The position numbers and the translations under genes are program-made. From Balneolaceae bacterium (lineage in GTDB: Bacteria; Bacteroidota; Rhodothermia; Balneolales; Balneolaceae): a stretch of 64,000 nt of DNA. The stretch is taken from positions 1 to 64,000 of the forward strand of contig JAFIFB010000061.1 in NCBI GenBank assembly GCA_020832285.1. The letters are read 5' to 3'. Under the pieces are notes generated by a model. The model searched no databases and was not told where the DNA came from. It was given only the letters and a program-made list of their open reading frames with translations. Positions 23,297 to 26,532 of this stretch are shown one piece after another; within the stretch, counting starts at the first letter, position 1; every line of letters begins with the position of its first letter.

Positions 23297-23572
23297 TCAA
23301 TCTTTCTCTGATTTCTCAATAAGCATTGTCTCCTCATTTTTCACTTCCAGCTGAAAACCCCATCTCTTCAAAATGGGTTCTTCGAGAGCTTTTTCGCGGT
23401 ATTCGTCAGGTGTCATAATGGGGATACCGTAAATAACAGGATAATATCTGCCGCATTCGGGACAGGTCATCAGTGCTTCGATGATTTCTTCATTTTCCTG
23501 TTTAAAAATTTTAATCGTCAGGTCGTTTTTGTCCATAGGGCAACAAAGTTTGGACACAAGAGATGTTTTCAT
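23297..23572 (-). CDS. Trm112-like zinc-binding protein
   Basis: A 91-residue protein with the Trm112/YcaR layout: LCCPMDKNDL near 9-18, a short insertion, then CPECGRYYPVIYGIPIMTPDE near 37-57, giving Cys at 10/11, 37 and 40 as likely zinc ligands. The Y-x-YPV-x-GIP motif is diagnostic. In eukaryotes and archaea Trm112 binds and activates class I SAM methyltransferases; bacterial roles are poorly known. It is the last gene of the TPP-riboswitch cluster, 26 bp after the ThiE-like gene, and a class I methyltransferase is the first gene, which makes a physical partnership plausible. Confidence 0.8.
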   Translation of the reverse strand: MKTSLVSKLCCPMDKNDLTIKIFKQENEEIIEALMTCPECGRYYPVIYGIPIMTPDEYREKALEEPILKRWGFQLEVKNEETMLIEKSEKD

Positions 23573-23598
23573 AATCGATGGTGCAAAAGATACTGATA

Positions 23599-24255
23599 TT
23601 AAATAGTTTCTTGTTTATTTACTCTGTTTTGGAGCACTTCATTATATTTTCGAGCGGCTGTTTCGGGGGAATCTGCGCTCAAAATGCCGGATATGACCGC
23701 CACGCCGTCAAAATGCAGCTCTTTTAGATCATTCAGATTTTCTATAGTGATACCTCCAGATAAAAAGATCGGTTTTTTTGTGATTTCACGAGCTTTACGA
23801 ACTGTTTCAGGCTTGACGATTTCGCAGTTTTGCACCGATTTGGAAGGAAACATCGAACAGAAAGATATGTAGTCCATCCCCTCTTCCTCCGCCCATTGTA
23901 TTATTTCCAGGTTGTTCTCGCAGGTGATACCGGCAATAAACTTTCTATTCAGTTTTTTTTTGATCTTTTGAAAATCCTCCGGTACCTGATCAAAATGAAC
24001 ACCATCCAGATCGGGCTGATGCAGCAGCTCCCACTCTTCATTAATCAAAACAGGTACATTGTAGCCGGAAACGATCTTTGCAATCGCCCTGATCATTTCT
24101 TGTTTTTCGGGCACAAGATATTCCTCCGGCCAATTATTCCAGATTTGAACCATGCATATACCTCCATAGATAGCCTCTTTCAGTTTTTCCAAAAGCTTGG
24201 CTTTTTCCATAGAAGGGTTCAGAACAAGATAAATTCCGGGGTTGATCGTTTTCAT
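23599..24255 (-). CDS. Divergent ThiE/TenI-like (thiamine phosphate synthase family) protein
   Basis: The 218-residue TIM-barrel protein follows the ThiE plan: IYLVLNP at the start, VPVLINEEWELLHQPDLDGVHFDQ where INDRvdlA...ADGVHLGQ is usual, and IFLSGGITIENLNDLKELHFDGVAVISGIL, the phosphate-binding end. The usual GPIFPTxTK loop reads SFCSMFPSKSVQNCEIV, and the INDR motif reads INEE. ThiE joins HMP-pyrophosphate and thiazole phosphate to thiamine phosphate. The altered loops raise doubt whether this protein does exactly that reaction. It sits in a TPP-riboswitch-led cluster, which supports a thiamine-related role. Confidence 0.75.
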   Translation of the reverse strand: MKTINPGIYLVLNPSMEKAKLLEKLKEAIYGGICMVQIWNNWPEEYLVPEKQEMIRAIAKIVSGYNVPVLINEEWELLHQPDLDGVHFDQVPEDFQKIKKKLNRKFIAGITCENNLEIIQWAEEEGMDYISFCSMFPSKSVQNCEIVKPETVRKAREITKKPIFLSGGITIENLNDLKELHFDGVAVISGILSADSPETAARKYNEVLQNRVNKQETI

Positions 24256-24306
24256 CGATTAAATTATTAGCTCAATTTATTCTTTTCATTTTAATAATAC
24301 GCCTCT

Positions 24307-24335
24307 CTGTACAACGGGCAGCTTGCCCGTTACTC
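24307..24335. repeat. REP-like hairpin, left member of an inverted pair
   Basis: CTGTAC, stem AACGGGC, loop AGCTT, stem GCCCGTT, then ACTC. It lies between the AIR-synthase-like and ThiE-like genes. The partner at 24426-24454 is inverted, with the same flanks and core loop but a different, still complementary stem. Confidence 0.65.
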
Positions 24336-24425
24336 AGAAACCAACTAAAACATAAAGCCTTTCCATCAGCCCAATTCTGCCGAAAATAGAACCCTTAGAA
24401 CGTACTGATTCACTTTCAAACTCAC

Positions 24426-24454
24426 GAGTGCCGGACAAGCTGTCCGGCGTACAG
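24426..24454. repeat. REP-like hairpin, right member of an inverted pair
   Basis: Read on the minus strand: CTGTAC, stem GCCGGACA, core GCT, stem TGTCCGGC, then ACTC. It ends 4 bp before the stop of the AIR-synthase-like gene. Together with 24307-24335 it forms a BIME-like pair inside the riboswitch cluster and could modulate expression of the two distal genes. Confidence 0.65.
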
Positions 24455-24458
24455 CGGA

Positions 24459-25523
24459 TTATTTCCAGCCATTTTTCATTGCATTAAAAAAAGCGTCCCA
24501 GTATGGGTCTTTGCCGCTAAAAACAAACGGTTTTTCTATATCGTTTTCGATCAGGGTATATCCATCGGAAGATTCTGTAAATTCACCGACAACTGTTGCC
24601 GGAATCGATTTGCTTTCAAGATGATTGATTAGTTCGACCTCTCTTCCCGGTTTTACGGCTATAATCATTGAACCGGCCCCCACACTAAGGCGAGGATCAA
24701 TATCAAACAGTTTGCAAATTGTACGGGGAACTTCTTTAACCGGAAGCTGATTATTCTCTACTATAAATCCGCAACCGGAGGCTTCGGCCATTTCGCAGAT
24801 AGCGCCCATAACTCCACCTTCGGTTACATCGTGCATCGCTCTCAGCTCGTCATTATTTTTGAGTAATTCCGATGCAGCCAGTGCATCGTCCAGTGAGGAT
24901 GTCCTGTAAAAATTTTCACAACCCTGTTCAAAAACTTCTTTCCCGGCTTTGTTTTTTACGGTTTCGGGAAAGCTCATTGACAAAATGGATGAAGAAACCA
25001 GTGCCGCTTCTTTGGTTACTACAATTTTATCACCCGGTTCAGCCCGGCTGCTGGTAATAATTTCATCCACCGGAGCCGTCAAAAACATCGTGCCTCCTCC
25101 CGGGATGGTGGAATTTTGCCCATGGATTTTCCCGGTGTGCCCTCCGGTAATGGCAACTCCGATCTCCTCACACAGCTTGCTGATCTGCTGCCAGTATTCC
25201 AGGAACGCCTCTTTACCAAGGTCGGGCGGTAGGTTGAGCACAAACTGTGCATATTGTGGTGCAAAACCGGTTGTAGCCATATCATTGGTCAGCAGATGAA
25301 CCGAAAGCCAGGCCGACTCCCTTAATCCAAGAGAAGCAATCAGCGAGAGCGGGTCACTGGATACAGCCAGGCCTTTCCCATCACCCAGGTCAATCACCGA
25401 CACATCTACTCCAAAAGCGGGGCCTGTGAGGACTTCTTCTCTCAAAAATCCGCGGTGGGGAAATATGATCTCGTCAAATATTTCATTGTCAATTTTACCG
25501 GATCGATTTTTAAAATCAGTCAT
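24459..25523 (-). CDS. AIR synthase-related protein (HypE/ThiL/PurM superfamily)
   Basis: A 354-residue ATP-binding protein of the PurM-type superfamily. The N-terminal half has GVDVSVIDLGDGKGLAVSSDPLS near 40-60 and NDMATTGFAPQ near 80. The C-terminal half has AMHDVTEGGVMGAICEMAEASG, very like the HypE motif HDPTRGG. Members are HypE (hydrogenase CN ligand), ThiL (thiamine phosphate kinase), PurM and SelD. Ordinary ThiL motifs such as GDDAA are absent; by similarity it is nearest HypE, yet no hyp or hydrogenase gene is near. In a TPP-riboswitch cluster a ThiL-like kinase role is the attractive inference. Follows the methyltransferase by 33 bp. Confidence 0.75.
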   Translation of the reverse strand: MTDFKNRSGKIDNEIFDEIIFPHRGFLREEVLTGPAFGVDVSVIDLGDGKGLAVSSDPLSLIASLGLRESAWLSVHLLTNDMATTGFAPQYAQFVLNLPPDLGKEAFLEYWQQISKLCEEIGVAITGGHTGKIHGQNSTIPGGGTMFLTAPVDEIITSSRAEPGDKIVVTKEAALVSSSILSMSFPETVKNKAGKEVFEQGCENFYRTSSLDDALAASELLKNNDELRAMHDVTEGGVMGAICEMAEASGCGFIVENNQLPVKEVPRTICKLFDIDPRLSVGAGSMIIAVKPGREVELINHLESKSIPATVVGEFTESSDGYTLIENDIEKPFVFSGKDPYWDAFFNAMKNGWK

Positions 25524-25556
25524 TGTTTTACATAATTTCTTTAGATTCAGGCCAGA

Positions 25557-26282
25557 TTAATCCACATCATTCATTCGTACGTGCAGGCCAAAAAAATCAC
25601 CCACTGGCAAGCCCCACTGCTGAACCGGGAACCATTTTGGAAGTCCGGTAGTGGTCCATTCAATCTCGTAGACCCTGCCTTCCAGAGCCTTGTGTATAAT
25701 TTCAATGAGAGATTTTGGTGTGTAAAAGGTAGCGGTTTCATAAAACGGATTTTTCCCGAACATTTCCTGAACACGTCGGCGCACTACTTTGGTTGAGTTG
25801 CGGTTCATCATACCAAACACAATGCCATATTTACCTACACGCACGGCTTCGCGAATCACCTTCACCGGATCTTTGTAATACTCGAATGTCGTTATGAAAG
25901 CAAGGGCATCAAACGTATGATTTTTAAATGGCATGTGGTGCGAGTCGGCCAGAACAAGGTCACCATCAAAAAGCCTGACTCCCTGGGCCAGCATGAATGG
26001 AGAGATATCTCCCCCGGTTGCCTCGATGCCTACTTCCTTCCACCATCGCGTGAATCGGGTAGTTCCGCAGCCGAATTCGAGCAGAGTATTTACACGCTTA
26101 TCTTTCTTAATGAGTCCGGCCAGAATTTTTTTCTGCCAAATTTCTGCCCGTTTATAACGGCCTTCATACCAAAGCTCGTAGCTATCGGTATGTTCGCGGT
26201 TAAAAAACCATTCATCACGCCCCTGCCACTTCTGAAGTTTTTTGGTGACGAGGCCGAATTTCTTCTTTTCGATTTGAGTCAT
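25557..26282 (-). CDS. Class I SAM-dependent methyltransferase under a TPP riboswitch
   Basis: A 241-residue Rossmann methyltransferase. Motif I reads LLEFGCGTTRFTRWWKEVG near 82-100, followed by the acidic GGDISPFMLAQGVRL, then VLADSHHMPFKNHTFDALAFITTFEYYKDP (motifs II-III) and EAVRVGKYGIVFGMMN. The best resemblance is to ubiquinone/menaquinone-type small-molecule methyltransferases, but the substrate is unknown. It is the first gene behind the TPP riboswitch (26354-26439), which is unexpected because thiamine synthesis has no standard SAM-methylation step done by such an enzyme. A hairpin in front of its ATG probably forms the expression platform. Confidence 0.8.
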   Translation of the reverse strand: MTQIEKKKFGLVTKKLQKWQGRDEWFFNREHTDSYELWYEGRYKRAEIWQKKILAGLIKKDKRVNTLLEFGCGTTRFTRWWKEVGIEATGGDISPFMLAQGVRLFDGDLVLADSHHMPFKNHTFDALAFITTFEYYKDPVKVIREAVRVGKYGIVFGMMNRNSTKVVRRRVQEMFGKNPFYETATFYTPKSLIEIIHKALEGRVYEIEWTTTGLPKWFPVQQWGLPVGDFFGLHVRMNDVD

Positions 26283-26284
26283 AA

Positions 26285-26314
26285 CAGGATTTTTTAAATG
26301 TTCAAAAATCCCTG
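26285..26314 (-). promoter_or_regulatory. Expression-platform hairpin in front of the methyltransferase start
   Basis: CAGGATTTTTT (26285-26295, + strand) is complementary, with one bulge, to AAAAATCCCTG (26304-26314). The hairpin ends 2 bp before the ATG and would cover the ribosome-binding region. No T-run follows, which fits translational rather than transcriptional control by the riboswitch. Confidence 0.45.
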
Positions 26315-26353
26315 ATCCGAACAGAGTTGACTTGCTATAGCAAATAAGACTTG

Positions 26354-26439
26354 CTGCTTCCTACGCTGGCATTACCCAGATCAGGTCTTAAGGGTATGAT
26401 CTCAGCCGATTCGTAATTTTACGGATCAGCACCCCACAG
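26354..26439 (-). ncRNA. TPP riboswitch (THI element)
   Basis: Read on the minus strand the element runs GGGGTGCTGATCCG, GGCTGAGATCATACCC, TTAAGACCTGATCTGGGTA, ATGCCAGCGTAGGAAG. These are the TPP-aptamer invariants in the right order: the GGGGUGC start, CUGAGA, ACCUGAUCUGG and UAAUGCCAGCGUAGG. CUGU/GCAG closes P1, and P3 has a short AT-rich hairpin (CCGTAAAATTACG). It opens the minus-strand cluster of methyltransferase, AIR-synthase-like, ThiE-like and Trm112-like genes, about 72 bp ahead of the first start. Ligand and aptamer are certain by motif; which genes are regulated is inferred from orientation. Confidence 0.95.
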
Positions 26440-26532
26440 TTCTTACAAATTAACAAAAATACGGCGGGATCAGAAACGAAGATTTACATTCATTTTTTGT
26501 TATCATAAGCCAAACTTAAAAATCCTGAAGCC

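Follow-up and report, generated by a model that had tools for sequence, protein, structure and literature searches.

Thiamine synthesis is missing in many environmental Bacteroidota, and it is of wide ecological interest how these bacteria obtain the vitamin that they need. Within this phylum, a survey of TPP regulons covered only the Bacteroidaceae (PMC3766115), and the thiamine regulon described for Bacteroides consists of thi biosynthesis genes together with TPP-regulated transporter genes with tnr3 (PMC5613172). Clusters for bacimethrin link a methyltransferase with thiamine chemistry, and hold in addition genes for a thymidylate synthase-like protein, a glycosyltransferase, ThiD2, and an ABC transporter (PMC12345177). 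The eukaryotic partners of the zinc-knuckle protein Trm112 modify tRNA, rRNA, and release factors, and the function of Trm112 in bacteria was called unknown in a 2017 review (PMC5372719).

The operon described here is led by a TPP riboswitch, and its enzymes, judged from their sequences, appear to fall outside the known thiamine families that they resemble. It lies in a 64,000-nt stretch of DNA from a Balneolaceae bacterium (the window: contig JAFIFB010000061.1, positions 1 to 64,000), with the following features, given from the leader to the last gene:

26341-26445, minus strand: TPP riboswitch aptamer heading the operon (Rfam RF00059)
26281-26316, minus strand: predicted hairpin extending to the start codon of the methyltransferase gene (leader fold prediction, weak, z -1.25)
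25557-26282, minus strand: class I SAM methyltransferase (MT), 241 aa (Pfam Methyltransf_11, E 3e-15)
24459-25523, minus strand: ATPase of the AIR-synthase superfamily (AIRS-like), 354 aa (AIRS and AIRS_C, E 1e-10 and 9e-21)
24314-24446, no strand assigned: inverted pair of palindromic repeats, REP-like, between the AIRS-like and ThiE-like genes
23599-24255, minus strand: ThiE/TenI-fold barrel with altered active site (ThiE-like), 218 aa (TMP-TENI, E 4e-34)
23297-23572, minus strand: Trm112-like zinc-knuckle protein, 91 aa (Trm112p, E 2e-6, over the Pfam cut-off)

The aptamer matches the full RF00059 model (positions 1-105) at 62.4 bits, against a gathering threshold of 54.3 (E 7e-10), and is the sole RNA family above threshold in an Rfam scan of the window; together with the Pfam families this bears out the preliminary description of the window, which had recognized a TPP aptamer pointing into four minus-strand genes. 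Through this aptamer, TPP would be expected to repress the operon. The hairpin reaching the MT start codon, whose predicted fold is weakly better than those of shuffled sequences, is a possible expression platform acting on translation; a terminator in the leader was rejected, since terminator-like matches in the region are about as numerous as in shuffles. The repeats (CGGACAAGCTGTCCG and ACGGGCAAGCTGCCCGT, inverted) look like a REP doublet and separate, in the window's genome, two genes that nearly abut or overlap in most relatives. The flanking genes encode a DcuC-type carrier (on the opposite strand) and deoxyribonuclease IV, both unrelated to the operon.

Control by a TPP riboswitch is shared with the Bacteroides thiamine regulon, as is the presence, in operon-bearing genomes, of a TonB receptor under a TPP aptamer; the gene set, however, is a different one, and the hosts of the operon mostly lack ThiC, ThiD, and ThiE. 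Likewise, the association of a methyltransferase with thiamine chemistry recalls the bacimethrin and methoxythiamin clusters, but genes for a thymidylate synthase-like protein, a glycosyltransferase, ThiD2, and an ABC transporter are all missing from the conserved unit, which does not belong to that class. The literature that we searched, which covers the field in part and leaves room for a description that we did not see, gave no description of this gene combination, in agreement with the preliminary description, which had seen in it a candidate for an undescribed system.

A search for this gene order behind TPP riboswitches across Balneolota and other Bacteroidota, as the preliminary description had proposed, shows that the four genes form a conserved unit. 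Among 59 genomes (the window's own and the relatives searched) it is found in six; in the five other carriers the order is identical as far as the contigs extend (one contig stops after the AIRS-like gene, and another starts inside MT), and the aptamer is present in four of them, the fifth being the contig that starts inside MT. Across 84,980 species of bacteria and archaea, a single scan returned 126 stretches encoding relatives of the AIRS-like protein, and the best 80 of these, all from Bacteroidota or Balneolota, were taken for comparison. In this set all 79 complete loci have the order MT-AIRS-ThiE-Trm112 on one strand, which greatly exceeds what chance would give. A strict TPP motif stands upstream of MT in 62 of the 78 assessable loci, compared with 1 in 1600 shuffles, and Rfam adds 12 aptamers, for about 74 of 78; the four assessable loci with no detectable aptamer belong to Neolewinella/Lewinella and one related Cytophagales MAG. 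The preliminary description had named a wide occurrence of the genes apart from any TPP riboswitch as an observation that would speak against it, and these counts show the reverse.

The conservation stops at the borders of the unit. No neighboring gene is conserved across lineages, neighbors being kept only within genera or close groups; we accordingly rejected both a conserved fifth gene (thiL follows at a single locus) and a flanking gene common to Pontibacter and Balneolota, whose neighbors of 550-600 aa show no similarity between the groups when compared. Families are intermixed in a tree built from the AIRS-like protein, with Ferruginibacter falling among Pedobacter and Cognataquiflexum and with Algoriphagus in three places, which indicates that the unit, riboswitch included, has most likely been transferred horizontally as a whole. 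Codon comparison gives dN/dS values of 0.00-0.21 where computable, as under purifying selection. In Arenibacter we also observed species with two copies of the unit (L088 and L093; L082 and L092), one pair lying approximately 32 kb apart on one contig.

The altered character of the encoded proteins is clearest in the ThiE-like barrel. Its TMP-TENI score of 118 bits (Pfam cut-off 27) places it in the superfamily, while it stays under the equivalog cut-off for thiE (TIGR00693, 108.9 versus 145.1 bits). The structural model (pLDDT 95.5) has Bacillus subtilis ThiE as its nearest fold, with a TM score of about 0.84 (2tps; nearest PDB entries 1g4s and 2tps), followed by TenI, and the protein retains the phosphate loops (GGI and S189) as well as the positions of Q37 (Gln57) and H87. 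In B. subtilis ThiE, Arg59, Lys61, and Lys159 bind the pyrophosphate of HMP-PP. Unlike that enzyme, the operon's barrel has W, N, and V at these three aligned positions, and it has gained conserved residues of its own: W39 (in 99% of 80 members), D89, N114, S131-F132-C133, and C144. The missing pyrophosphate residues fit hosts that, in the absence of a full-length ThiD, seem unable to make HMP-PP.

A similar picture holds for the AIRS-like protein, whose model (pLDDT 92) has HypE, ThiL, and SelD as its nearest folds and which scores far under the curated cut-offs for all three (64 of 184 bits for the thiL equivalog TIGR01379; 64 of 252 bits for HypE TIGR02124). It shares the two-domain fold with ThiL, HypE, SelD, and PurM (whose cut-off it likewise misses by far), keeps the conserved aspartates D40, D57, D81, and D232 where ATP and Mg are presumed to bind, and is probably an ATP-using enzyme; it differs from ThiL in having GGHT at the position of ThiL's GGDT. 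Its C-terminus (...NAMKNGWK) lacks the terminal cysteine of HypE, and for this reason and the low scores a HypE function was rejected. We likewise rejected the idea that it is the missing ThiL, since a canonical ThiL is always present besides.

The MT is the most conserved member of the unit, with 119 columns conserved at 95% or more among 81 sequences, and Bud23, a partner of Trm112, is one of the three PDB sequences that match it at E 1e-5 or better. The Trm112-like protein carries its zinc-ligand positions (C11, D14, C37, and C40) in 100% of 80 members and is matched by PDB entries 6zxw_H and 6f5z_C (6f5z, an archaeal Trm112, at E 3e-8); this zinc-knuckle signature and the archaeal homology place it among Trm112 proteins, with a score of 62.9 bits (E 2e-17) for NCBIfam Trm112_arch, whose cut-off is 77. 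As with Trm112 and the methyltransferases Trm9, Trm11, Bud23, and Mtq2, a zinc-knuckle protein here accompanies a class I methyltransferase, in this case within one operon, and their co-occurrence in 79 of 79 loci makes an MT-Trm112 complex probable. The present version differs from the described ones in being bacterial and in being led by a TPP riboswitch; it provides a concrete pairing for a bacterial Trm112-type protein.

What the operon might supply depends on the thiamine genes found elsewhere in its hosts. In the window's genome, ThiC was not found, the sole ThiD-family match is weak and half-length, and the ThiE-like gene encodes the only TMP-TENI protein over the cut-off. The statement of the preliminary description that no normal ThiL is present is right for the cluster and wrong for the genome, which has a canonical ThiL outside the operon (G000:C46, 255 bits, cut-off 184), as well as TPK and a second strong TPP aptamer leading a TonB receptor; a second strong aptamer leads a TonB receptor in most genomes examined. 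More widely, ThiC was detected in 1 of 22 named operon-bearing genomes versus 48 of 149 sampled Bacteroidia (Fisher p = 0.005), and in none of five further Balneolota hosts. The one exception, Sphingobacterium wenxiniae, has a full classical operon elsewhere in its genome and is also the only host with a full-length ThiD, which is missing in the other 21 of the 22. A separate ThiE is almost never found in operon-bearing genomes, and ThiG is absent in the one host tested for it (G060). ThiL, at the family level, is present in every operon-bearing genome tested, so that the suggested lack of a normal ThiL is not supported; the complete separate thiE/thiL set that the preliminary description had named as a counter-indication is thus found by half, always for ThiL and almost never for ThiE. 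Because nearly all hosts lack the standard vitamin B1 pathway, the operon is probably an undescribed way to the active form of the vitamin, and a variant step or a salvage reaction, as had been proposed, remains the best class of explanation.

TPK was found in 4 of 21 hosts outside Balneolota and in 19 of 80 ThiC-less Bacteroidia with no detected operon (p = 0.78). We therefore rejected the argument that hosts lack TPK and that the operon must for this reason make TMP: TPK is equally rare where no operon was detected, and its absence is no proof that the operon has to supply TMP. The composite-query survey of genomes scored three candidates in each, which makes its number of operons a lower bound. 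A protein that is TPK-like by eye and unrecognized by Pfam lies beside a second TMP-TENI protein in Pedobacter chinensis (L176:5253-6545), and may partly explain the apparent absence of TPK in Bacteroidia. In Balneolota the operon is an accessory: members that lack it, in which ThiC is missing too, have ThiL, TPK, and TPP aptamers, so that thiamine can be used there without it.

The best pointer to the product of the operon comes from a single locus. In a Balneolales MAG (L034), a fifth gene, which lies 22 nt past Trm112, encodes canonical ThiL (290.7 bits, cut-off 184), and the whole MT-AIRS-ThiE-Trm112-ThiL string has its own TPP aptamer ahead of it; this arrangement, seen in 1 of 80 loci, ties the operon to the conversion of TMP to TPP. 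The account that we favor, and to which we give slightly less than an even chance, is that the operon is a mobile, TPP-repressed module that provides TMP to the host's ThiL without HMP-PP, starting from an imported thiamine-related compound. When TPP is low, the riboswitch would permit expression, and the compound would enter through the separately TPP-regulated TonB receptor. The AIRS-like ATPase might then activate or phosphorylate it and the MT-Trm112 pair methylate it, the order of these and the following steps being tentative; the ThiE-like barrel, with its phosphate loops and without a pyrophosphate pocket, would join, tautomerize, or repair, and the presumed TMP product would pass to host ThiL for conversion to TPP. 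Thiamine vitamers known from the environment include FAMP, aminomethylpyrimidine, carboxythiazole, and oxidized thiamine (PMC10470507, PMC10881298, PMC5899164, and PMC12345177), and these could be substrates of the operon. We regard as rather unlikely the fuller claim of a new, self-contained TMP route that bypasses ThiC, ThiD, and HMP-pyrophosphate, in which a bacterial Trm112 activates the SAM methyltransferase and which is passed on by horizontal transfer among Bacteroidota. With its four altered enzymes, the mobile riboswitch-led operon is in any case a testable candidate for an unrecognized step in the use of thiamine vitamers.

Among the alternatives, the operon could encode a de novo route that builds the pyrimidine or thiazole moiety, or couples non-standard halves, in place of ThiC, ThiD, and ThiE, with SAM as the source of a methyl group and the AIRS-like protein closing a ring in the manner of PurM. 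The AIRS-superfamily relatives include PurM, an enzyme that achieves ring closure by activating a formyl or amide oxygen; the three enzymes to be replaced (ThiE in its classical form) are missing in nearly all hosts, and the MT is both the first and the most conserved gene. Four proteins are few for a complete pathway, however, and the hosts look like importers, with their TPP-controlled TonB receptors, as do the Balneolota without the operon, which equally lack ThiC and have TPK; we thus consider such a route unlikely. The patchy, mobile, and sometimes duplicated occurrence of the operon would also suit a TPP-controlled role in making or removing an antivitamin or another secondary compound derived from thiamine, as by the bacimethrin and methoxythiamin clusters, where a methyltransferase is likewise found (PMC12345177). 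Yet the other genes of the bacimethrin cluster are not in the conserved unit, no exporter is conserved beside it across lineages, and the ThiL at L034 points to cofactor supply, all of which makes this distinctly unlikely.

Two further readings were weighed. The MT-Trm112 pair could methylate RNA or protein according to TPP status, with the ThiE-like and AIRS-like proteins acting as regulators that bind TMP or TPP: such targets are those of the eukaryotic Trm112 partners (PMC5372719), and Bud23 is among the three PDB matches of the MT. This is very improbable in our judgment, given that the active-site positions of the two putative regulators are strongly conserved, as in enzymes, and that a metabolic role is the commoner one for such mobile units. 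Plain divergence, in which the ThiE-like protein would still function as TMP synthase and the AIRS-like protein would serve as an additional ThiL, would agree with the nearest folds (ThiE and HypE/ThiL) and with the lack of another ThiE in most hosts. Across 80 members, though, the pyrophosphate residues have been lost and new invariant ones gained, 21 of the 22 named hosts have no full-length ThiD to provide HMP-PP, and a canonical ThiL is always there too, so that we hold plain divergence to be very unlikely as well. TMP supply from an imported compound is the reading that we retain.

Several other TPP-linked loci came to light as well. In Balneolota, further TPP-like aptamers form a second set, with scores of 40-63 bits (L003, at G000:C56:2843-2944; G003:C6:162180; G030:C4:1534146 and 1534576; G033:C1:524594; and G023:C1:216140) and one tandem occurrence, which lies amid genes for a P-type ATPase, a GroEL-like protein, a flavodoxin, and other seemingly thiamine-unrelated products; these are either degenerate aptamers or a sign that TPP controls another gene set. 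In a member of the Catalimonadaceae without ThiC (L160:4339-6311), a TPP-led TonB receptor is followed by two NMT1/THI5-like proteins, apparently cytosolic, which possibly carry out HMP synthesis of the THI5 type. In Arenibacter and Sphingobacterium hungaricum (L167:1594-3184 and L184:8007-9702), an acyl-CoA-dehydrogenase-like protein comes after a PnuT-like transporter that lies next to a TPP aptamer; the uptake or salvage of thiamine would be an unusual setting for a flavoenzyme.
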